64,000 nt of DNA from Sphingosinicella sp. LHD-64 (GTDB taxonomy: Bacteria > Pseudomonadota > Alphaproteobacteria > Sphingomonadales > Sphingomonadaceae). The translations under genes were made by a program, and so were the position numbers. The stretch covers positions 1 through 64,000 of the forward strand of contig NZ_JAVIFV010000005.1 in assembly GCF_031157375.1 (NCBI RefSeq), given 5' to 3'. Positions 7,538 through 63,745 of this stretch are shown piece after piece (within the stretch, counting starts at the first letter, position 1; the number at the start of each line of letters is the position of its first letter). Below the pieces are notes generated by a model, which worked only from the letters and a program-made list of their open reading frames with translations, searched no databases and was not told the origin of the DNA.

Positions 7538-8002
7538 ATGCTGGATGTCGAACGCCATCGCGAGCTGCTGCGGCAATGCTCGATCGCAGCTGCGCTGGAA
7601 TCGGTGGGGGAGCGCTGGTCGTTCCTGATCCTGCGCGGCGCTTTCAACGGGCTCCACCATTTCGAGGAGTTCCAGTCGACGCTCGGCATCGCCCGCAACA
7701 TCCTCTCCAATCGTCTCACGCGGCTGGTCGAGCGGGGCATATTGGCACGCGAGCCCGATCCGGCCGATCGACGCAAGATTGCCTATATGCTGACGGAAAA
7801 GGGACGGGATTTGCTGCCCGTGCTCATCTCGCTCCGGCAGTGGGGCGAGAAATGGGTATCGGAGCAGCCCAGCAATCCGGTGCTGGTCGACCGGCAAACG
7901 CGACGCCCGATCGCGCTGATGACCGTCCGCGCGGCCGATGGACGCCCGCTCGCGCTCGGCGAAATGGAGTGGCTGGACCGGTCGGAGATCATATCCGGAT
8001 AA
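7538..8002 (+). CDS. HxlR-family winged-helix transcriptional regulator
   Basis: A 154-residue DNA-binding protein of the HxlR family, which act as dimers and often sense redox or electrophile stress. The diagnostic core is present: CSIAAALESVGERWSFLILR, FEEFQSTLGIARNILSNRL and YMLTEKGRDLLPVL. One cysteine precedes the core, in the position used for sensing by some members. I start at the ATG at 7538 (MLDVERH), because the upstream residues do not resemble the family. It is divergent from the small secreted protein gene and is followed by a strong terminator. Confidence 0.88.
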   Translation: MLDVERHRELLRQCSIAAALESVGERWSFLILRGAFNGLHHFEEFQSTLGIARNILSNRLTRLVERGILAREPDPADRRKIAYMLTEKGRDLLPVLISLRQWGEKWVSEQPSNPVLVDRQTRRPIALMTVRAADGRPLALGEMEWLDRSEIISG

Positions 8003-8007
8003 ACGAA

Positions 8008-8047
8008 CAGGGCAGGGTTCCGCGGTGAGCCGCGGAACCCTGCCCTG
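8008..8047. terminator. Perfect 18-bp inverted repeat between convergent genes
   Basis: An 18-bp arm (8008-8025) pairs without mismatch with 8030-8047 around a 4-base loop TGAG. It lies between the convergent stops of the HxlR gene and the small TM protein gene, so it probably stops transcription from both sides. There is no clear T-run, so it could also act as an mRNA-stabilising 3' hairpin. Confidence 0.7.
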
Positions 8048-8065
8048 CGCAAACGGGATAAACGA

Positions 8066-8305
8066 CTACGGGCTGGCCGGGGTGCCCTCGTCGCTGTCGT
8101 TCGAGACCGCGATCGCGATGATGGCGACGAGAAGCAGAACGCCCAACGCGATCCCCGCACTACCAGCCATCGAATTCGCATCGTCCATCGGCGCCGCGGC
8201 GCGAACGGGCGTCGCGACACTGAGCGGAGCCGCCGCCTGCGCGGCAACCGGCGACAATGCCAGTGCCGACGCGCTGACTGCGGTAAGAAGCCTCTTAAAG
8301 TTCAC
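8066..8305 (-). CDS. Small exported or membrane protein, unknown function
   Basis: Seventy-nine residues from a GTG start at 8305 that sits behind AGGGAGG. The N-terminus is a signal peptide (KRLLTAVSASALALSPVAAQA). A second hydrophobic stretch near residues 50-68 (GIALGVLLLVAIIAIAV) is a likely membrane anchor, followed by a short acidic tail. I do not recognise a family. It reads away from rpoZ toward the shared terminator at 8008-8047. Confidence 0.65.
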   Translation of the reverse strand: MNFKRLLTAVSASALALSPVAAQAAAPLSVATPVRAAAPMDDANSMAGSAGIALGVLLLVAIIAIAVSNDSDEGTPASP

Positions 8306-8437
8306 ATCTGCCTCCCTGTTACAAAGGGCAAAGTCCCCTGCCCGTCGCTTCGAGTAACACAACAAAGCAGAACGTGCCAAGAGCCGCAAGGCTCCACGCT
8401 AATTGCGGATGCGAAATATTATTTCGGCAAGATCGGC

Positions 8438-8782
8438 TCAGCCGTCGTAATCGGCACCGGCATTGGTGTTGCGCTGGGGCGCTGCAGCGGTGAGGCGCAG
8501 CGCCTCGGCCGATGCGGAGAGCGAGCCCACCTCGTCGGCGACGTCGTCGTCGTCGACCTGCACGCGCTGCAAGCTGCCAACCAGCGCCTCTTCGAGATCG
8601 CGCGGACGAACCGTCTCCTCCGCGACCTCGCGCAGCGCCACGACCGGATTCTTGTCGCGGTCGCGATCGATGGTGAGTTCGGCGCCGCCCGAAATCTGCC
8701 GCGCGCGCTGCGCGGAGAGGAGGACGAGCTCGAACCGGTTCGGGACTTTGTCGACGCAATCTTCGACGGTAACGCGCGCCAT
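8438..8782 (-). CDS. rpoZ: DNA-directed RNA polymerase omega subunit
   Basis: Small RNA polymerase subunit that helps assemble beta-prime and mediates ppGpp effects in some bacteria. The N-terminus [28 protein letters not shown] is the omega signature through helix 1, followed by [16 protein letters not shown]. At 114 residues it carries the longer acidic/alanine tail common in alphaproteobacteria. rsh lies downstream on the same strand, separated by three small genes. Confidence 0.95.
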
Positions 8783-8881
8783 GCGGCTGCTCCAACTCTA
8801 TGAATCTGGTCTTGCGGGAAAGCCCGCGCGCCTATCAGCGCGGGCCCGCCGAGTCAATGTAAGAGGCCGGATGGTGGGGCG

Positions 8882-9994
8882 CTAGACCCGCATCGGCATC
8901 AGCACGTAGAGCGCTGGCGCCTTGTCATTCTCGCGCAGCAGCGTCGGCGCTGCAGCGTCGGCGAGGTGGACTTCGACCGCGTCGCCCTCGATCTGGTTCA
9001 GAATGTCGAGCAGGTAGCGGGCATTGAACCCGATCTCGAATCCGTCCGCGGCATAGTCGGCCGGCACTTCCTCGGCCGCCGTACCATTTTCGGGCGAGGT
9101 GACCGACAGCGTGATCCGGTCGCGCTCGAGGCTCATCTTGACCGCCCGGGTGCGCTCGCTGGCGATGGTGGAGACGCGGTCGACGCCCTCCTCGAAGCTG
9201 CGCGGATCAATCTTGAGGAGCTTGTCATTGGCGGTCGGGATGACCCGGCTATAGTCCGGGAAAGTGCCGTCGATGAGCTTGGACGTGAGCACCGCATTGC
9301 CGAGACCGAAGCGGATCTTGGTGTCGGAAAGCGACACCTGCACCGAGCCGTCGACCTCGTCGAGCAGCTTGCGGAGCTCGCCGACGCATTTGCGCGGAAT
9401 GATCACGCCGGGCATGCCCTGCGCGCCATCGGGGCGCGGCACCGTCACCCGTGCCAGGCGGTGACCATCGGTGGCGGCCGCCTTCAGCACCGGCTGCGCC
9501 TCGTCTGAGACGTGGAGGTAGATGCCGTTCAGATAATAGCGCGTCTCCTCGGTCGAGATCGCGAAGCGGGTCTTGTCGATGATCTGGCGGAGCGCCGCCG
9601 CCGGCAGCTCGAACCGGTGCGGCAGCTCGCCCTCGGCGATCACCGGGAAGTCGTCCCGGGGCAGGGTCGCCAGGGTGAAACGGGCACGGCCGGCATTGAC
9701 CTGCATCCGTCCTTCGGCGGCGATCAGCTCGACCTGGCTGCCTTCGGGCAGCTTGCGGGCGATCTCGAAGAGGGTGTGCGCCGGGACGGTCGTCGCGCCC
9801 GGATCGGAGATATTGGCCTCGACCATCTCGTTGATCTGGAGATCGAGGTCGGTCGCCATCAGGCGGATCGACCCGTCCTCGCCGGCCTCGATCAGGACGT
9901 TGGACAGGATCGGGATGGTGTTGCGCCGTTCGACCACGGAATGGACGTGGCCCAGTCCCTTGAGGAGCGTCGCCCGTTCGATCGTCGCCTTCAT
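8882..9994 (-). CDS. dnaN: DNA polymerase III beta subunit (sliding clamp)
   Basis: Ring clamp that tethers DNA polymerase III and other clamp users. The 370-residue protein shows family blocks: TIPILSNVLIEA, LMATDLDLQI, TFPDYSRVIP, and the C-terminal LMPMRV that ends most clamps. Start ATG at 9994. It is not next to dnaA or recF; recF and gyrB are about 5 kb away on the other strand, so the classical dnaA-dnaN-recF-gyrB order is broken here. Confidence 0.96.
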   Translation of the reverse strand: MKATIERATLLKGLGHVHSVVERRNTIPILSNVLIEAGEDGSIRLMATDLDLQINEMVEANISDPGATTVPAHTLFEIARKLPEGSQVELIAAEGRMQVNAGRARFTLATLPRDDFPVIAEGELPHRFELPAAALRQIIDKTRFAISTEETRYYLNGIYLHVSDEAQPVLKAAATDGHRLARVTVPRPDGAQGMPGVIIPRKCVGELRKLLDEVDGSVQVSLSDTKIRFGLGNAVLTSKLIDGTFPDYSRVIPTANDKLLKIDPRSFEEGVDRVSTIASERTRAVKMSLERDRITLSVTSPENGTAAEEVPADYAADGFEIGFNARYLLDILNQIEGDAVEVHLADAAAPTLLRENDKAPALYVLMPMRV

Positions 9995-10075
9995 CGATTA
10001 CCCCTGCTCGGCATTCTTTTCGGTTTCGGCAAGGTTATAGCGGCCGTTGCAAAGCCCGCCAGTGGGAAGTGAAAC

Positions 10076-10106
10076 AAAAGGGGCCGGAGCGTCGCCGCCC
10101 CGGCCC
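10076..10106 (-). terminator. Rho-independent terminator after the outer-membrane barrel gene
   Basis: GGGCCGG (10081-10087) pairs with CCGGCCC (10100-10106); on the minus strand the hairpin is followed by CTTTTGTTTC. It lies just downstream of the barrel gene stop and upstream of dnaN, separating the two transcription units. A second GC-rich dyad lies at about 10113-10130. Confidence 0.7.
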
Positions 10107-10150
10107 GATATGGCACCGGCCCTAAGGCCGGGTGGATCCGCTCATGCCCC

Positions 10151-10729
10151 TCAGAAGCGGAAGCCGAAACCGCCGACCACCTGGTGGCGGCTGAAGCCGT
10201 CCTCGTAGTTCGAGTAGCGATACTCGGTCTTGAGGAAGGCGTTCTGACTGAGCGCATATTCCGCACCGGCGCCGAGACGGACGCCGTCCAGATTGCGGCC
10301 GATGTTGAAATCGGACGTCGTCGCGGCCGTGCCGTCGTCATAGTCGAGGCGGACGCGGCCGTTGGTGTAGCCGGCCTTCGCATAAAGCAGCAGGTTGCGG
10401 CTCACCGCGGCACCGGCGCGGCCGCCGACATAGAGGTCACGGCCAGCACCCGCACAGAGCTGGTCGCCGGCGATCACGGTGCCGCTGATGCACTCGTCCG
10501 CCGACGAATCGGTGACTTCACCCTCGATGCCGAAAACGGCGCGGCCGCGCTGCAGGTCGTAGCCGACCGCGGCGCCATAGGTCACGCCATTCGCTCCCTC
10601 TCCTTCGACATTGACGCGATCCCAGCCGACGATGCCCTCGATGCGGGCACCCTGGAAGGTGGCGTCCTGCGCGACAGCCGGCGTGGCAACGACACCGGCG
10701 AGAAGAAGCAACACAACAGACTTACGCAT
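10151..10729 (-). CDS. Outer-membrane beta-barrel protein (OmpA-like/Omp25 porin family)
   Basis: A signal peptide (MRKSVVLLLLAGVVATPAVAQ) is followed by an 8-strand-like barrel: alternating aromatic strands such as AVGYDLQRGRAVFGIEGEV, LYAKAGYTNGRVRLDY, GAGAEYALSQNAFLKTEYRYSNY and a terminal VVGGFGFRF ending in phenylalanine, the BAM signal. The 192-residue length fits the Omp25/OmpW-like small porin group. The ATG at 10729 has GGAG eight bases upstream and is preferred to the ATG five codons earlier. Probably structural in the outer membrane; no ligand can be inferred. Confidence 0.85.
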   Translation of the reverse strand: MRKSVVLLLLAGVVATPAVAQDATFQGARIEGIVGWDRVNVEGEGANGVTYGAAVGYDLQRGRAVFGIEGEVTDSSADECISGTVIAGDQLCAGAGRDLYVGGRAGAAVSRNLLLYAKAGYTNGRVRLDYDDGTAATTSDFNIGRNLDGVRLGAGAEYALSQNAFLKTEYRYSNYEDGFSRHQVVGGFGFRF

Positions 10730-10865
10730 TATTCTAACTCCCATATTCTCCAGCCCTGAGGGGTAATGTCGGGCCGGCGGCGCCGCTCTGGCCCGGCGTT
10801 GGTGAACCTCAGCCGAACGGGTTTTTCAGTTGCCAGCAAGGTTCCGCGCGGGCGATCAGGGGCGG

Positions 10866-11351
10866 ATGGTTCGGGGCTCCGTCTTTCTCGCTCTCCTCGC
10901 ACTGGCCGCGCCGGCGGCGGCGCAGCGCCAGTCGCTGGGGGTGTTCGGCACCTGGGGTGCGTTTCGCGGCGCGGACTCCTGTTATGCGATTGCCCAGCCG
11001 TGGCAGGCGCCGGCGCCGGAGGGTTGGCGGCCATTCGTTTCGGTCGGACACTGGCCGGGCCGGCGCGTCGCCAACCAGCTCCACGTCCGGCTCAGCCGCG
11101 AGAAGCGTGAGGGCTCTGCGGTGCTGCTGCGGATCGACGGCGAGGTTTTCCAGCTGACCGGCAGCGGCCGCGACGCCTGGGCGCCGGACCGGCGTGCGGA
11201 CGACGCGATCCAGGATGCAATGCGGACCGGTCTGGACCTCGTCGTCGAGACCCGCTCGACCCGCGGCGCACTGGTGCGTGACCTCTATCGCCTCCGCGGT
11301 GCCGCCACGGCGATGGACGCGGCTGCCGTGGCCTGTGTGGGGCGGCGCTGA
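10866..11351 (+). CDS. Exported IalB-like protein
   Basis: Predicted exported protein of 161 residues with a signal peptide (VFLALLALAAPAAA). The mature sequence (FGTWGAFRGADSCYAIAQP, GSAVLLRIDGEVFQLTG, and a final AACVG-like cysteine) resembles the invasion-associated locus B (IalB) family of small periplasmic alphaproteobacterial proteins; the role is unknown outside Bartonella. ATG at 10866 follows AGGGGCGG. Its stop shares one base with the ATG of the histidine phosphatase gene (TGATG), so the pair is translationally coupled. Confidence 0.6.
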   Translation: MVRGSVFLALLALAAPAAAQRQSLGVFGTWGAFRGADSCYAIAQPWQAPAPEGWRPFVSVGHWPGRRVANQLHVRLSREKREGSAVLLRIDGEVFQLTGSGRDAWAPDRRADDAIQDAMRTGLDLVVETRSTRGALVRDLYRLRGAATAMDAAAVACVGRR

Positions 11352-18848: not shown

Positions 18849-18858
18849 TGCGTTGCGA

Positions 18859-20313
18859 CTAAGTTCGACGAAAAAGCCAGTCGACAATCGAATTTTCATT
18901 CGGCGTCGGCGCATTCGTGCATGCTTGTGCCGCGGCGGCTCCCATTACGTCGGTAAGAGCATTCTCGAAATCGCGACTGACATCAACAAAACCTGTCGCT
19001 GCATGAACGATTTCATGGAGCAATGTCCCCGCGAAATTCCTGAGGTCGATAAGTTGATCCCTGCGGATCACGATGCAACTTGATTCTGGATCCCACAATC
19101 CTACCGAATCAGTGCCCGTCACGAAGTCGGCCCGCATCGTGCGGCTAATGCGAACACCCTTAACGTGACGAGGAAACCCTCCCGCAATCTGCGCAATAGA
19201 ATCGCGCATCTCGAACACCCGCCGCTCATCCTTCGTCAGCGCCGCGGTGTCGACGAAGTCAAATACGAAGCTGTCGTTCCATTCGGCCTGATATGCCCCG
19301 AGGTCGCGGATCGGCGCGCCCAGAGCGTCGATTCCGCCGGCGACGTCAGCGTGAATGTTGTCCGGAATCGTTACGATAGCGAGACCGTCGTCCCGGGCCT
19401 TGTCGATCGCATCAACGTTCGTGACTAACTGAAAGGCTGTGACAAACAGATAGCGTCCGCTCGCATTCAGGATTTTACAAGCGTGAACAGCCACTTCTTT
19501 CCATTGTACCTCGTCGGCCCCAGTTCCCGCTTGGACTTTCACGAGTTCGTCGGCGAGGGTCGCGGCGACGGCTGCGCCTTTTGCTTGGAGAAGCATATGT
19601 TTGACGCGCTCAGTGTAGGCCGTGCGACCCACATTCGTTCTCTCCCTATTGAGGGCTTTTCTCATCGCGACGTTGAGCGAGGTGATATTGTAGGAGAAGG
19701 CGAACGCTTCCTCCTCGGCGATCAAGAGTCCCGCCACATAAACTCGCGCACTCTGTCCGTCCTTGCGCCCTAGAATCTGACCAACGCTCGTTTCCTCGAG
19801 CACCATTTCTCCCGAAAATTTCAGGAAGAAGCGCTTCGCCTCGTCCATCTCGCTATCGCGCAATCCAGCCAATGTAATTTTGGTGCCCACATAGTCTGGT
19901 CTGGCACTCGGCCCTACTTCGGCATGAAGGGTAACCACATCGTCAAATCCGTGCTTTGCCTTTTCGACAACGGTGATGGAGCCGTGGGCCGACTCGATCT
20001 CAACGCGCACGCCATTACGATGAAGCGTGGCCAGCGCATCCTTAAGTCCAACTCCGAATTTTCCGATAACCTTACCGACATTTTCAAGCTTCTCGGCACT
20101 CTCGTTCTGAGTGAAGTGCTCGTAGCGCAACCCCCGGCCATGATCCTGGATCACCCATGCCCCATCGCTGCGTCTAAGAATGTCGATTTCGGCGCTACGG
20201 CTGAGTGTCTGCTCATCAAGCGCGTTGGCGATAAGCTCCCGAACCGCGTGTGCGTTTGTCCAAGCCTCCAATATCCTTTCGATGTTGAGGTCGAATAGCC
20301 TTGTTCCGGTCAT
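18859..20313 (-). CDS. GHKL ATPase with C-terminal HExxH metallopeptidase motif (candidate conflict protein)
   Basis: Unrecognised 484-residue protein. The N-terminus is a GHKL (Hsp90/MutL/MORC-type) ATPase: N-box RELIANALDE with E26 and N30, G1 box DHGRGL (57-62), G2 box GKFGVGLKDAL (84-94), and GTKITLAGL. A middle part (YVAGLLIAEEEAFAFSYNI) looks like an S5-type transducer fold. The C-terminus has HEIVH at 433-437 with E450 as possible third ligand, as in zinc metallopeptidases. I use the ATG at 20313 because GGGGGAC precedes it. The gene is AT-richer than its neighbours (20041-20100 is 26/60 G+C), suggesting transfer. It lies downstream of mazEF. A role in phage or plasmid conflict is inference. 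Confidence 0.75.
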   Translation of the reverse strand: MTGTRLFDLNIERILEAWTNAHAVRELIANALDEQTLSRSAEIDILRRSDGAWVIQDHGRGLRYEHFTQNESAEKLENVGKVIGKFGVGLKDALATLHRNGVRVEIESAHGSITVVEKAKHGFDDVVTLHAEVGPSARPDYVGTKITLAGLRDSEMDEAKRFFLKFSGEMVLEETSVGQILGRKDGQSARVYVAGLLIAEEEAFAFSYNITSLNVAMRKALNRERTNVGRTAYTERVKHMLLQAKGAAVAATLADELVKVQAGTGADEVQWKEVAVHACKILNASGRYLFVTAFQLVTNVDAIDKARDDGLAIVTIPDNIHADVAGGIDALGAPIRDLGAYQAEWNDSFVFDFVDTAALTKDERRVFEMRDSIAQIAGGFPRHVKGVRISRTMRADFVTGTDSVGLWDPESSCIVIRRDQLIDLRNFAGTLLHEIVHAATGFVDVSRDFENALTDVMGAAAAQACTNAPTPNENSIVDWLFRRT

Positions 20314-20401
20314 TTTGTCGTCCCCCAATATGCCGGCCGACATTACATCAAACTGAGATGCTGAGTTCGGAAATTACTAGCGCGTCGAGATTTGGTTCGA
20401 T

Positions 20402-20737
20402 TCAGCCGACTAACACCCGCAGCTTCGCTCTGATCTCCTCCAACTCCACCGCGCTAGCCTTGCCCTTTTTGGTCGCCTTGCGTACTCGCCAATCGAGGCA
20501 CTTCACTTGGTCGGCCAAGGCGACGCCGCCGCGGCTTCCCTTCACCGCCACCTCGAACGGATAGCCCTTCACGCGCGTCGTCAGCGGCACGCAGAGCATC
20601 AGGCCGGTCTTGCCGTTATAGGCGGCGGGCGAGAGCACCACTGCGGGGCGATGGCCGGCCTGTTCGTGTCCGGCCTGGGGGTTGAACTGCAGCCAGACGA
20701 TATCGCCGGCGTCCGGCGTCCACTTGCCGGCTACCAC
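20402..20737 (-). CDS. mazF: MazF/PemK-type mRNA interferase toxin
   Basis: Sequence-specific endoribonuclease toxin of a type II toxin-antitoxin pair. Family features are present: GDIVWLQFNPQAGHEQAGHRPAVVLS with the catalytic arginine in HRPAVV, VPLTTRVKGYPFEV with the conserved threonine, and VKCLDWRVRKA. 111 residues from a GTG start whose first bases overlap the antitoxin stop (7 bp overlap), as is usual for mazEF. The GHKL-HExxH gene follows 88 bp downstream on the same strand without an obvious terminator, so read-through is possible. Confidence 0.92.
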   Translation of the reverse strand: MVAGKWTPDAGDIVWLQFNPQAGHEQAGHRPAVVLSPAAYNGKTGLMLCVPLTTRVKGYPFEVAVKGSRGGVALADQVKCLDWRVRKATKKGKASAVELEEIRAKLRVLVG

Positions 20738-20973
20738 GCCTCATTCCCGACAGCGGGGCCGAAATCGATTTCCTCATGCCGGTTCTCGGGGGTGATGCCT
20801 TCGAGCAGCCATTCCAATGTCGTCGCCTGCGGCTTGGCCTTCTCGATCACGATCCGGCCATTTTCCTCGCGCACCTCGATCGGATCATCTGGCTTCAGCC
20901 CGGCAGCGTCGAGCGTGGCAGCCGGAATACGCACAGCCGCACTGTTACCCCATTTGCGCACATACATGTTCAT
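20731..20973 (-). CDS. mazE: MazE-type antitoxin (AbrB/SpoVT fold)
   Basis: Eighty-residue antitoxin. The N-terminal swapped-hairpin DNA-binding domain is typical: YVRKWGNSAAVRIPAATL, LKPDDPIEVREENGRIVIEKA. The C-terminal tail (LEWLLEGITPENRHEEIDFG) is the acidic part that blocks MazF. The start ATG at 20973 has GGAG seven bases upstream. The promoter TTGAAA-17 bp-TATCTA with a 19-bp palindrome over its -10 box indicates autoregulation. Confidence 0.92.
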   Translation of the reverse strand: MNMYVRKWGNSAAVRIPAATLDAAGLKPDDPIEVREENGRIVIEKAKPQATTLEWLLEGITPENRHEEIDFGPAVGNEAW

Positions 20974-20983
20974 GGCGATCTCC

Positions 20984-21024
20984 GTATCTACACTGTAGAT
21001 ACTCGATGGCACGCATCGTTTCAA
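20984..21024 (-). promoter_or_regulatory. mazEF promoter with autoregulatory palindrome
   Basis: On the minus strand TTGAAA (21019-21024) and TATCTA (20996-21001) are 17 bp apart. The dyad GTATCTACA-c-TGTAGATAC at 20984-21002 is perfect apart from its central base, and covers the -10 box and start site, as expected for binding by MazE or the MazEF complex. The ATG of mazE begins 11 bp downstream of the palindrome. Confidence 0.8.
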
Positions 21025-21054: not shown

Positions 21055-21453
21055 ATGAAGCATATCGGTCAATGCCATTGCGGCGCGCTTCGCGTCTCTT
21101 TCGACACGAACAGGCCGCTCGTGCCACGTGCATGCCAATGCAGCTTCTGCCGTAAACATGGTGCGCGGACTGTGACCGACCCGGAGGGCCTGGCCATGCT
21201 GATCCTCGGCCCGAAGGCGAACCGCTATCGCTTCGCTTCGAAAACGACCGACTACATTTTGTGCGGCCGTTGCGGCGCCTATGTGGGCGCCGTCGCCGAG
21301 ATCGAACGCGCTACCTACGCCACGCTCAATCTCAACGCATTCGACGATCCGCGGCTGGACCTCACCGCCGCCCCGGTCGACTATGACGGCGAGAGCCCGG
21401 CGGAGAAGGCGGCGCGGCGCCGGGCGCGTTGGACGCCCGCCCGGCTCGCCTGA
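21055..21453 (+). CDS. GFA/CENP-V domain protein
   Basis: A 132-residue zinc protein of the glutathione-dependent formaldehyde-activating (GFA) family. Zinc ligands are visible as GQCHCGALRV, CQCSFCRKHGA and CGRCGAY. Some members accelerate formation of S-hydroxymethylglutathione, but many have unknown roles. Start ATG at 21055 with only a weak ribosome site. It is divergent from mazEF (81 bp between starts) and its stop abuts the stop of the VWA gene. Confidence 0.87.
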   Translation: MKHIGQCHCGALRVSFDTNRPLVPRACQCSFCRKHGARTVTDPEGLAMLILGPKANRYRFASKTTDYILCGRCGAYVGAVAEIERATYATLNLNAFDDPRLDLTAAPVDYDGESPAEKAARRRARWTPARLA

Positions 21454-60535: not shown

Positions 60536-60614
60536 CGTCACCCCGGCGAAAGCTGGGGTCTCTTTTCCTTTGGCGGCGAGAAGTGCAAGGAGATTCCAGT
60601 CCTCCGGAACGACG
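60536..60614. repeat. Degenerate palindromic repeat, cgtcat(t/c)cc family, copy 3
   Basis: The left arm CGTCACCCCGGCGAAAGCTG (from 60536) matches the other family members; the right end (GAGATTCCAG...GACG, to 60614) is partly decayed, so pairing is imperfect. It sits between the divergent lysA and ubiG starts and so overlaps their promoter region. Confidence 0.6.
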
Positions 60615-60623
60615 AACGAGATC

Positions 60624-61349
60624 ATGGCGACCACCATCGACCCCAAGGAAGCCGCCCATTTCGGCCAGCTCGCCGCCGACTGGTGGGACCCGAAGGGCAG
60701 CTCGGCGATGCTGCACAAGCTCAATCCGGTGCGGCTCTCCTATGTCCGGGCGCGGATCGACGCGCATTGGGGGCTGGACGAGCACGACCTGAAGCCGCTC
60801 CGGGGCAAGCGCGCCGTGGACGTGGGTTGCGGCGCGGGGCTCCTCGCCGAGCCGCTGTGCCGGCTGGGGGCGGAGGTGACCGCACTCGACGCGGCGCCGG
60901 AGAATATCGCAGCGGCGAAGCTGCACGCCGAGGGGCAGGGGCTGACGATCGCCTATCGCGTCGGTGGCACCGAGGCGCTCACGGGGCGCTACGACCTCGT
61001 CACCTCGATGGAGGTGGTCGAGCATGTCGCCGACGTGCCGGCCTTCGTCGCGGGGCTGGCCGATGCGCTGGCAAAGGACGGGCTGCTGGTCATGTCCACG
61101 CCCAACCGCACCGCCTGGTCGCGGCTGGTGATGATCGGGATCGGCGAAGGACTGGGGCAGATACCGCGGGGCACGCACGACTGGGACAAGTTCCTGACGC
61201 CCGGGGAGCTGACCGCCGAGCTCGCGGCGACGGGGCTGGAGGTGACCGACGTCACCGGCCTCGGCTGGACGCCGACGCGGGGATTTGCGCTCACCGAGGA
61301 TGTGTCCCTCAACTATCTGCTGACGGCGCGGCGCGCGGCCAGCATCTGA
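60624..61349 (+). CDS. ubiG: Ubiquinone biosynthesis O-methyltransferase
   Basis: Catalyses both O-methylations in ubiquinone synthesis. HFGQLAADWWDPKGSSAMLHKLNPVRLSYV is the UbiG N-terminal signature. Motif I is VDVGCGAGLLAEPLCRLGAEVTALDAA, and the late VMSTPNRTAWSRLVMIGIGE and GTHDWDKFLTPGEL fit. 241 residues. Start ATG at 60624, close behind a decayed palindromic repeat. Divergent from lysA. Confidence 0.95.
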   Translation: MATTIDPKEAAHFGQLAADWWDPKGSSAMLHKLNPVRLSYVRARIDAHWGLDEHDLKPLRGKRAVDVGCGAGLLAEPLCRLGAEVTALDAAPENIAAAKLHAEGQGLTIAYRVGGTEALTGRYDLVTSMEVVEHVADVPAFVAGLADALAKDGLLVMSTPNRTAWSRLVMIGIGEGLGQIPRGTHDWDKFLTPGELTAELAATGLEVTDVTGLGWTPTRGFALTEDVSLNYLLTARRAASI

Positions 61350-61660
61350 CGCGAATGTTCCCAATGTTCGCAGTGGCCATGGCGGGTGCGTTCCCCGACC
61401 TTTTTCAAGCCTCGGGGACGTCTCGAAGAGGGCGTCAAAACGAACGAATCAAAGAGCCGGCGATCCGGGCAAAGCCCGAGTCGCGGCAATGGTGTCAGTC
61501 GAAATCCTATTTGTATCCAACAATCCAGAGAGTCCGCTTTCGACCTCTTGCGGTCTAGGCCAGTGGCAGAATGTGCCCCTCCTGGTCATTTGCAACTCGC
61601 CCCTTAAACCTCCTCAAGCATCCGGTTGGAGAGGCGAGTGGCGCCAGCTAACATCGCGGG
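61350..61660. other. 311-bp region without a supported gene
   Basis: Between ubiG and the AT-rich foreign gene. It contains an imperfect dyad around GTTCCCCGA/TCGGGGAC near 61390-61425 that could be the ubiG terminator. The G+C falls along the region. I see no RNA gene, attachment duplication or clear promoter in it. Confidence 0.5.
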
Positions 61661-62407
61661 ATGTCCAAATCCGAATCATCGCAATTAATGGATTCTATCG
61701 GAACTTGGATTAGGCGGATCGACGACACCCCGGGATGGAAGGAATGGCAGCGAGCTAAAATCGCTGCTGCCATGGACTCAGTTGAGGGGTACCGACATCG
61801 AGCAAGCGATCTACCTGATGAATTCAAGTTTCCAGACGATATTGAATCTCAACATGAAGCCATAATGTCCTACCTTAATCTTAATGTCTGCCTACATTCT
61901 CTCCAGCAATGTGAATTCTATTTTCGAAGATTTCCGTTTAGATCTTCATGGATATCCAAGGAGGATCACATTCGTAACATATGCGAGATGTATTTTAGTA
62001 GGTTCTACGAATTCAAATCACGCTTGAAACGTTGCTTGAACGCTATAAACATGACTATCGACGGGGAATTGGATGTCGGAAAAACTCTAAAAGGGTTTGC
62101 AAGGGATTTTGATCAAGAACTTAGGGCACGAAACGCAATTCACCACCACGACCAGTTTGACGACTTGGCGATCCAAGGGATCGGTATTGCCACAATGATG
62201 GGTACTGACGAACGAGTCGGTCCGGGCTGGCAACTTGTAGCCCGCATTGGCTATCGGCGCTCCTCCCGAGAATGGGCTGAACGGGTGAAGCGGCGCAGCA
62301 AGGACGTCGAGCACTACCTTGACGCGGTAGCGAAAGCTATGTTGGAACATTGCACATTCTTGGACGAGCCTGTCGACAGCCAAGAAACGAAAAAGAAAGC
62401 TGTCTGA
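61661..62407 (+). CDS. AT-rich orphan with HEPN-like motif (Rx4-5H)
   Basis: Unrecognised 248-residue, mostly helical protein. The motif LRARNAIHHHDQF has R157 with H162/H163, matching the Rx4-6H active site of HEPN ribonucleases such as the AbiU2 type; YFSRFYEFKSRLKRCL (residues 111-126) also fits the HEPN helical core. G+C is far below its neighbours (61861-61920 is 22/60 G+C), so recent transfer is likely. No antitoxin or partner gene is visible in its surroundings. ATG at 61661. The HEPN assignment is inference from one motif. Confidence 0.5.
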   Translation: MSKSESSQLMDSIGTWIRRIDDTPGWKEWQRAKIAAAMDSVEGYRHRASDLPDEFKFPDDIESQHEAIMSYLNLNVCLHSLQQCEFYFRRFPFRSSWISKEDHIRNICEMYFSRFYEFKSRLKRCLNAINMTIDGELDVGKTLKGFARDFDQELRARNAIHHHDQFDDLAIQGIGIATMMGTDERVGPGWQLVARIGYRRSSREWAERVKRRSKDVEHYLDAVAKAMLEHCTFLDEPVDSQETKKKAV

Positions 62408-62440
62408 AAAGTTCGCAGCTTAGCGACGCCCTCAGGCCGC

Positions 62441-63745
62441 CTATTCCCTTTCCTCCCGGCTCAACCTTGTCATCAGGATCGCCGCGCGCTGGGCCTGGCG
62501 GGTGAGGCTGTCGAGGTCGATCCATTCGCCCGGCGCATGGCTGCCGCCGCCGGCGGCGCCGAGGCCGGCGAGGGTGTCGGCGTCGCCCGCGACGAAGCTC
62601 GAATCGGCGGCGCCGCGGCGGGCGGGGTCGTATTCGGGCATTTCGGGCAGGCCGAGGTCGCGGTTGACCGCGTTGAGGCGGGTGAGGATGGCGCGGTTGC
62701 CCGCGGTCGGCGCCATCGGCGGATAGCCGTCCTCGGCGAAGACCAGCTCGGCCTGGGTCTGCGGCAGGTGCTGCGCGACGATCGCCTGCATCCGGGCGCG
62801 GACGCGCGCCTCCTGATCGGCGGAGAGGGTGCGGATGTCGCCGCGGGCGACCGCCTGCTCGGCGACGATGTTGGTCTTGCCCGAGGCGGTGACGCGGAAG
62901 CCGTCGGCGTCGATGCTGGCCGGCGTGCCGCCCGCCATCACGCCGACATTGTAGGTGAGGTTGGGTTCGGGCAGCTCGCGGCGGAAGGCGTCGAGGATGC
63001 GGGCCAGCTCGTAGATCGCGCCATAGCCGAGCCGCTCGCCGAAAACGCCCGACGAATGACCGGAGCGGCCGCGCGTGGTCAGCGTCCAGCTCGTCGAGCT
63101 GCGCCGCGCGACGGTGCCGAAGTCGCGGCCGTCCTGTTGCGCCAGATTCTCGAACTCCAGCGCGACGTCGGCCCAGCGGCCGGCCTCGATCAGGTCGCGC
63201 CGCGCGGTCGCGATCGGCGAGCCGGGACGCTCCTCGTCGCCGGTGAGCACGACCATGATGTCGGCGTCGCGCAGCGTCCCCGCCGCCTGCATCGCGCGCA
63301 GCGCCGCGACGATTACCGCGATGCCGCCCTTGTCGTCGCCGATGCCGGGGCCTGTGGCGCGGTTGCCCTCGCGGGTGAAGGTCTGGAACGGGCTGTCGGC
63401 CTCGAACACCGTGTCGAGATGGCCGATCAGGAGGATGCGCTTGCCGCGGCCGTTGCCGCGATGGGTGGCGACGATATGGCCCGCCCGCCCGGTTTCGCGC
63501 ATGTCGATCCAGCGCACCTCGAAGCCGAGCGGCTCAAGCTCGGCGCGGGCCATCTCGCCGACTGCGGTCACGCCTTCGAGGTTCAGCGTGCCGCTGTTCC
63601 GGTTCACCATTCGCTCGAGCAGGGCGATGGTGCGGTCGCTCTCCTGCGTCGCGACCTCGGCTATGCGGCGTTCGGGCGCGCTGAGCTCGGCCCGGGCGGC
63701 GGCAGGGAGGAGGAGAAGGGCGGCGATGAGGGGGAAGATGCGCAT
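62441..63745 (-). CDS. Exported M20/M25/M40-family zinc peptidase
   Basis: Co-catalytic zinc peptidase of the CPG2/M20 group. Signal peptide (MRIFPLIAALLLLPAAARA). Zinc ligands are visible: LLIGHLDTVFEADSPF (H-x-D), GPGIGDDKGGIAV (bridging D), LTGDEERPG (E-E), and a late GGGSHAPGEWID (H). A dimerisation domain (RGRSGHSSGVFGERLGYGA) is inserted as usual. 434 residues. Start ATG at 63745 gives the signal peptide directly. Substrate unknown; glutamate carboxypeptidase-type activity is common. Confidence 0.88.
   Translation of the reverse strand: MRIFPLIAALLLLPAAARAELSAPERRIAEVATQESDRTIALLERMVNRNSGTLNLEGVTAVGEMARAELEPLGFEVRWIDMRETGRAGHIVATHRGNGRGKRILLIGHLDTVFEADSPFQTFTREGNRATGPGIGDDKGGIAVIVAALRAMQAAGTLRDADIMVVLTGDEERPGSPIATARRDLIEAGRWADVALEFENLAQQDGRDFGTVARRSSTSWTLTTRGRSGHSSGVFGERLGYGAIYELARILDAFRRELPEPNLTYNVGVMAGGTPASIDADGFRVTASGKTNIVAEQAVARGDIRTLSADQEARVRARMQAIVAQHLPQTQAELVFAEDGYPPMAPTAGNRAILTRLNAVNRDLGLPEMPEYDPARRGAADSSFVAGDADTLAGLGAAGGGSHAPGEWIDLDSLTRQAQRAAILMTRLSREERE

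Follow-up and report, generated by a model that had tools for sequence, protein, structure and literature searches.

In a 64,000-nucleotide stretch of the Sphingosinicella sp. LHD-64 genome (the window; contig NZ_JAVIFV010000005.1, positions 1 to 64,000), a gene beside gyrB encodes a single protein, here called GHKL-zincin, which is predicted to consist of a GHKL ATPase module, a small conserved middle region and, C-terminally, a minigluzincin-like zinc peptidase (zincin). The gene is mobile cargo, carried by plasmids, by viral contigs and by inserts in chromosomes. We tentatively favour the explanation that it is a mobile single-gene protease of the conflict between hosts and foreign DNA, cleaving proteins on that DNA. 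Bacterial immune proteins that place a GHKL module ahead of a C-terminal effector have been described only recently (VcSduA, PMC12137116). If a zinc protease does act under GHKL control, the set of effectors would widen from nucleic acids to proteins, and prokaryotic conflict would be linked to the DNA-dependent crosslink proteases of eukaryotes. Members of the family, found in bacteria, archaea and phages, are single genes for small proteins of about 480 aa, and two clean point-mutant tests make the family directly testable.

An earlier note on this DNA had described one protein with a GHKL ATP site and a C-terminal HEIVH motif, and this description stands: the reading frame is open, and the motifs are intact and conserved in relatives. 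Residues are numbered here from the first ATG (494 aa), and the E26, N30 and E434 of that note (484-aa numbering) correspond to E36, N40 and E444. The 484-aa product is the likelier one, because a GGGGGA lies just 5′ of the second ATG (20313) and because relatives begin at the corresponding place, with an MTxxRLFDLNIE-type sequence.

The ATP site is complete. The N-box E/N, DxGxG and GxxGxG-type motifs of the GHKL superfamily are all present, and E36, N40, D67, G69-R70-G71, G94, F96, G97 and G99 are invariant in 20 of 20 aligned rows (window included; 40-64% identity to the window protein). Among 27 full-length rows, a set that includes the window and near-duplicates, 25 match all three GHKL patterns; one relative (L032) misses one pattern and a distant phage protein (L026) misses two. 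The Pfam family HATPase_c_3 matches at an E-value of 2.8e-5 and 24.6 bits, 0.4 bits below its 25-bit cut-off. The S5/transducer-like domain that follows has conserved FSYxIT and NRERxNVGRxAY (residues 232-243) motifs. An AlphaFold2 model of the whole protein from 17 sequences had a predicted local distance difference test score (pLDDT) of 84 and a predicted template modelling (TM) score of 0.69. All 42 of its PDB matches at E ≤ 0.001 (Foldseek) were Hsp90, gyrase/topoisomerase or MutL; many alignments to Hsp90, GyrB/ParE and MutL span about 250-660 columns, with query TM-scores of only 0.15-0.32. The model assigns the N-terminal module to the Hsp90/MutL/GyrB (GHKL-S5) clade. GHKL-S5 modules typically dimerize and work as clamps. 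Viral fold matches comprised uncharacterised phage proteins (best, 437 residues at a query TM-score of 0.55) and many RIIA proteins.

The HEIVH motif is not a chance occurrence, because HExxH is kept in 26 of the 27 full-length rows. Residues 272-494, folded alone, had a pLDDT of 86.9, and the four best PDB matches of this C-terminal model (Foldseek ranks 1-4) were abylysin, jannalysin (two chains) and selecase; abylysin (4jiu) superposed at E 0.019 and probability 1.00, with 89 columns aligned at a root-mean-square deviation of 2.4 Å. All three are minigluzincin-type zinc proteases. The earlier note would have counted a fold that buries HEIVH without zinc geometry against its own reading; the HExxH domain is predicted as a minigluzincin-like fold with HExxH on a helix, with no match at 0.001 or better. 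Weak Pfam matches to zincin families (E ≤ 1) were found to DUF6782 in 14 of 17 members, to M76 in 10 and to SprT-like in 9, and the window protein itself weakly matched M76 (0.11) and MPTase-PolyVal (0.15). Taken together with the conserved HExxH, the fold matches and weak zincin hits make a C-terminal zinc-peptidase fold likely. All 26 HExxH-bearing rows carry both candidates for the third zinc ligand, D454 and E460. In minigluzincin-like zincins this ligand is a Glu on the helix that follows; Wss1 uses a His, placed six residues beyond the second His of HExxH (PMC5557861). According to PMC4559962, which used abylysin 4JIU for modelling, Wss1 and Spartan are minigluzincin-like and DNA binding activates Wss1. 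Further non-significant matches of the C-terminal sequence profile were to Aip56 (0.21) and Wss1 (0.96), and GHKL-zincin members matched the WLM/SprT sequence profile only below threshold. The middle alpha/beta region had no convincing database match. A 115-aa open reading frame on a conjugative Citrobacter plasmid (L025, 5031-5378) matches only the C-terminal zincin part, at 46-51% identity.

The earlier note knew of no named system with this architecture, and none emerged here: no family in Pfam, NCBIfam, PADLOC or PHROGs gives GHKL-zincin a function. NCBIfam gave sub-threshold matches to sacsin-like and gyrase models, the N-terminal half matched PHROG 6077 (9.3e-23), a family that itself has no functional name, and PADLOC 2.0.0 matched 0 families to the three window genes scanned (GHKL-zincin, MazF and MazE). 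A defence protein combining GHKL and a metallopeptidase was absent from the literature matches listed (titles and abstract openings, open-licence PubMed Central). DefensePredictor (PMC13092281) names a HATPase domain among the predicted systems of one figure and, separately, an M15 peptidase, and the GHKL-zincin family may be among its predictions. The protein is under purifying selection, with a ratio of nonsynonymous to synonymous substitution (dN/dS) of about 0.08 overall in two close-relative pairs (0.036/0.446 and 0.044/0.571); its last third is also constrained in these pairs, with dS saturated in one of them.

We found relatives at 15 loci on genome contigs and four on viral contigs, the latter in a second scan; an earlier scan with a single sequence gave none. 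Ten of 72,556 plasmid records carry relatives (nine cover at least 80%), as do two of 50,697 phage records (one covers at least 80%). The phage proteins, from MTATph1 (L026, 5971-7311) and vB_EalM-132 (L071, 3989-5302), have 437-446 aa, a C-terminal HExxH and a GHKL-like N-terminal half, and are far more distant (about 24% identity). By eye, three further loci (L031-L033) look prophage-like; Pfam gave no match for the two tail-like reading frames that were scanned there (L032 and L033). Counting the own or centre genome as one positive each time, GHKL-zincin is present in 1 of 26 same-genus genomes (the own genome) and, among sampled genomes, in 2 of 397 from the family, 3 of 398 from the phylum (one copy split into two reading frames), 1 of 299 from Bacillota and 1 of 247 from Bacteroidota. 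Copies split in two occur at L016 and L029. The relatives are patchily spread over several bacterial phyla, archaea, plasmids and viral contigs. They are not vertically inherited in Sphingomonadales; the earlier note had set uniformly vertical inheritance there against its own reading. In the tree, a Salinibacter plasmid protein groups with three haloarchaeal proteins (support 100/99), which suggests transfer between domains of life; some caution is due because the composition of the Salinibacter row was flagged as unusual. Host labels of metagenome-assembled genomes also call for care: 98.6% identical homologues occur in two of them named Firmicutes (L014) and Bacteroidetes (L015), through either transfer or misbinning.

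An empty site adds to this evidence of horizontal mobility. A Sphingopyxis plasmid (L072) has an SbcCD cluster with an empty site where a relative (L004) has a 3.0 kb cassette, and the flanks around this site are 93.7% and 92.6% identical. The cassette (7923-10918) consists of GHKL-zincin and a NucS_C/YhcG-like nuclease gene, the latter matching the PADLOC candidate defence family PDC-S02 at 2.5e-43.

The window's own copy also looks like an insert. As reported earlier, it is AT-richer than its surroundings (55.4% GC, compared with 67.5% for the window); nowhere else there does a stretch of this length reach its AT content, with 4 of 1251 sliding 1485-base windows equally low in GC and every minimum falling on the gene. 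The adjoining gyrB, also reported earlier, ends 10 bases past its 3′ end in convergent orientation. Promoter and terminator scans gave nothing above chance. In the same-genus genome G186 (L062), mazE (80% identical) and mazF (91%) occupy the same place between a vWA-domain gene and gyrB, and the search of that genome found no GHKL-zincin. DNA homology between the window and G186 stops at the gyrB stop (about 18844) and restarts at the mazF stop (20401). The G186 slot instead holds an AT-rich (57.7% GC) reading frame of 177 aa (L062, 2491-3021, minus strand) with an EID...ECK nuclease-like motif and no Pfam match. Because G186 keeps mazEF in place with other cargo in the slot, the pair is an older resident or an unrelated neighbour, beside which the slot takes different cargo.

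The earlier note had seen that the gene follows a mazEF pair on the same strand, which is correct, and had taken the pair as part of the unit or as its stabiliser; we reject mazEF as part of the unit. The single-gene GHKL/zinc-peptidase-like architecture, the horizontal mobility and the lack of a functional name in the libraries searched were supported; the inclusion of mazEF was not. G186 has mazEF without the gene, and phmmer searches with the window's MazE and MazF found nothing similar in 41 other homologue loci (L003-L043), many of which are duplicates or fragments or have flanks of about 1.5 kb; distant MazF also escapes a search with one MazF query. For instance, the MazF query missed the MazF annotated in a control plasmid stretch (L077), where just its MazE was found, weakly. 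MazF is not listed in six annotated plasmid loci, and this mazEF is beside gyrB in none of the other same-genus stretches compared. The mazEF segment has 63.6% GC and is not notably AT-rich. Other toxin-type genes near homologues are a PIN toxin (L018), BrnTA (L023) and ParE (L007).

We examined which genes accompany the homologues. Restriction, nuclease or DNA-uptake genes lie near GHKL-zincin in 12 of 22 loci, several of them short stretches in which not every neighbour was scanned. At L023 it is flanked by type I S and R genes, each 51 bases away. It sits 66 bases after DprA (L019), directly downstream of Mre11-like and Rad50-like genes with a gap of 4 bases in an archaeal metagenome-assembled genome (L011), and 42 bases after a terminase gene on a viral contig (L034). 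Nearby genes elsewhere include Piwi and SIR2 (L021) and, at L024, those of type I restriction; L013 has a type ISP restriction enzyme and a Fic gene close by, and L012 a NucS_C-type gene on the other strand. In the alphaproteobacterial clade of the tree (11 rows), an SbcD-SbcC pair and a CoiA-like gene are present in seven rows (L003, L004, L005, L008, L009, L010 and L018, with identical copies in L003/L004 and likewise in L008/L009), four of which also have a WYL-domain regulator; the window, L006, L017 and L007, a short contig, have neither the pair nor the CoiA-like gene. On six annotated plasmids, stretches around GHKL-zincin hold 18 restriction or DNA-processing genes (6/6 stretches), compared with 3 (2/6) in control stretches of equal length taken from other parts of these plasmids; counting DUF1156 raises the control figure to 4 (3/6). 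The count went by product name (restriction, nuclease, DNA-uptake, SbcCD/SMC, Piwi and SIR2 genes), leaving out helicases, RNase H, recombinases and transposases. These plasmid controls, together with the empty site in the Sphingopyxis plasmid, are why we describe GHKL-zincin as mobile cargo repeatedly found near DNA-processing genes. This nearness may reflect either function or a shared hotspot.

The mechanism we tentatively favour would begin with ATP binding, which would clamp a GHKL dimer shut, probably around DNA. Clamp closure would unlock the zincin, which would then cleave proteins on the clamped DNA in the manner of Wss1/SPRTN. Cleavage would expose invading DNA to nucleases or destroy phage replication proteins, and mazEF would not be needed. 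Proteins on foreign DNA are favoured as the substrate because of the neighbouring genes and the Wss1/SPRTN-like fold. In a bolder and rather unlikely version, GHKL-zincin would be a prokaryotic immune protease on DNA: the clamp would close with ATP on incoming DNA and fire its Wss1/SPRTN-like protease at the proteins that shield or replicate it, opening the DNA to the restriction or SbcCD-type nuclease of the locus, with the phage relatives as a captured counterpart. We know of no system with a DNA-clamping GHKL immune protease.

Several observations weigh against the favoured explanation. A Halorussus plasmid copy (L024, 7995-9437) lacks HExxH while retaining its GHKL motifs, and a phage homologue outside the 27 rows (L071) has T at the place of E460, with D454 retained. 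The C-terminal model has no Foldseek match at E ≤ 0.001, its best being the 0.019 given above, and the C-terminal sequence profile finds no significant solved relative, the best being an unrelated plasmepsin V (0.17). A profile comparison (hhalign) with a SprT-annotated protease reached a probability of 14% over the HExxH stretch only; because this comparison is weak, we claim a likeness of fold to Wss1/SPRTN and not membership. Ten of the 22 loci, including the window, showed no restriction or DNA-processing partner of the foreign-DNA type, and the plasmid control is small (six plasmids), was scored unblinded from product names and includes two loci (L021/L022) that are not independent. The SbcCD link may be hitchhiking, because SbcC relatives (E ≤ 1e-30) occur on 51 plasmid records compared with ten with GHKL-zincin or a piece of it; among the 25 SbcC-plasmid matches listed, Croceicoccus alone also has GHKL-zincin. 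SbcCD as an obligate partner is rejected, as both SbcC plasmids opened lack GHKL-zincin and a search of the window's genome found no relative of the sphingomonad SbcC, an empty answer that alone shows little.

A different kind of protease is possible, if on the unlikely side. In abortive infection, the GHKL module would sense an invader signal and free the zincin to cut an essential host protein, stopping growth with no clamping of DNA; of the readings considered, this is the nearest to that of the earlier note, an ATP-gated protease switched on by an invader or damage signal. The gene stands alone in the window, in whose genome no match to the sphingomonad SbcC was found; the copies split into two reading frames (L016, L029) would fit a costly gene; and the GHKL-effector fusion VcSduA has proven anti-phage activity (PMC12137116, text in part). 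However, several copies stand in operon-like order with DNA-processing genes, which suggests a helper and not a suicide role.

It is unlikely that GHKL-zincin is instead a counter-defence or superinfection gene of mobile elements, whose phage and plasmid relatives would cleave or remodel host defence proteins, as is suspected of T4 RIIA-like GHKL proteins. Full-length, distant relatives with HExxH in both MTATph1 and vB_EalM-132, the many RIIA proteins among the viral fold matches, the PHROG 6077 match, and four relatives on viral contigs, one of them directly behind a terminase gene, all point this way, and RIIA is described among counter-defence systems as a GHKL protein with a variable C-terminal domain (available text of PMC7824862). 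The window copy, however, lies between gyrB and mazEF with no obvious prophage (no prophage search was made), and the copies inside a type I restriction operon and near Piwi/SIR2 genes fit defence better. A role confined to plasmid maintenance, through DNA-protein crosslink or DNA-end repair with SbcCD and with no part in conflict, is improbable: the SbcD-SbcC and CoiA-like genes of the seven clade rows, the WYL regulator in four, and the upstream Mre11-like and Rad50-like genes in the archaeal locus are consistent with it, but the window copy and most copies outside the alphaproteobacterial clade lack SbcCD, and the SbcCD cluster occurs without GHKL-zincin in both plasmids opened.

We compared GHKL-zincin, as a putative DNA-directed protease, with known systems. 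To our knowledge, the minigluzincins and Wss1/SPRTN, which share the best C-terminal fold matches and HExxH with it, are without a GHKL domain. Close in layout is VcSduA, also one protein with an N-terminal GHKL ATPase, a clamp-like middle and a C-terminal effector; the two differ in this effector, which is a PD-(D/E)xK nuclease (DUF4263) in VcSduA and a predicted minigluzincin-like protease here. The available text of PMC12137116 ascribes clamp action to the VcSduA GHKL module as well, and VcSduA-type Shedu to about 1.2% of genomes examined. Membership in Shedu (SduA) is rejected, as GHKL-zincin has no DUF4263 Pfam match. The MORC/paraMORC proteins of restriction systems share the GHKL and S5 ATPase, sporadic spread and restriction-gene neighbours (PMC2292703), and some carry a C-terminal effector, either a RecB-type nuclease (PMC2292703) or a Ymh HEPN domain (PMC3710099), both papers being available in part; the words peptidase, protease, zincin and HEXXH are absent from the main text of PMC2292703. 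T4 RIIA has a likeness of fold to GHKL-zincin but differs in that a zincin is not shown, and query TM-scores of named RIIA rows are 0.28-0.35. Lamassu (LmuA/B/C) has an SMC-like sensor and swappable effectors that include predicted proteases (partial text of PMC10586767), whereas the L004 and L011 loci have an SbcD/Mre11-type partner and the window copy has none. LmuB models are matched by SbcC in L004 (3.5e-22) and by the Rad50-like protein in L011 (1.3e-17), probably through general SMC likeness; neither LmuA nor LmuC was found among the ten proteins scanned.

Table 1. Features at the GHKL-zincin locus (window coordinates; residues numbered from the first ATG)
Feature	Position	Strand	Remarks
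GHKL-zincin gene	18859-20343	-	open reading frame; 494 aa from first ATG
Preferred start of GHKL-zincin	ATG at 20313	-	484 aa; second ATG
GHKL ATP-binding domain	19849-20313	-	about residues 11-165 of 494; approximate boundary
S5/transducer-like domain	19564-19848	-	about residues 166-260; approximate boundary
Middle alpha/beta region	19264-19563	-	about residues 261-360; conserved D277, E278, H287; approximate boundary
Minigluzincin-like zinc peptidase domain	18904-19263	-	predicted; about residues 361-480; approximate boundary
HEIVH (H443-H447)	19003-19017	-	predicted zinc-binding/catalytic motif
Candidate third zinc ligands	18964-18984	-	D454 (18982-18984), E460 (18964-18966)
mazF	20402-20737	-	passes MazF equivalog cut-off (177.8 bits vs 120)
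mazE	20731-20973	-	passes Pfam MazE_antitoxin; below NCBIfam equivalog cut-off
Segment wholly different between window and G186	18849-20401	.	gyrB stop to mazF stop; acquired cargo

Two further features of the window lie outside this locus. A second AT-rich stretch (60601-63100) holds a reading frame at 61661-62407 on the plus strand (248 aa, function unassigned). A gene at about 21076-21453 on the plus strand, presumably GFA-like as judged by eye, lies in the segment 21003-21461 and is absent from G186 at this spot, which suggests that it was inserted or lost in an event of its own.

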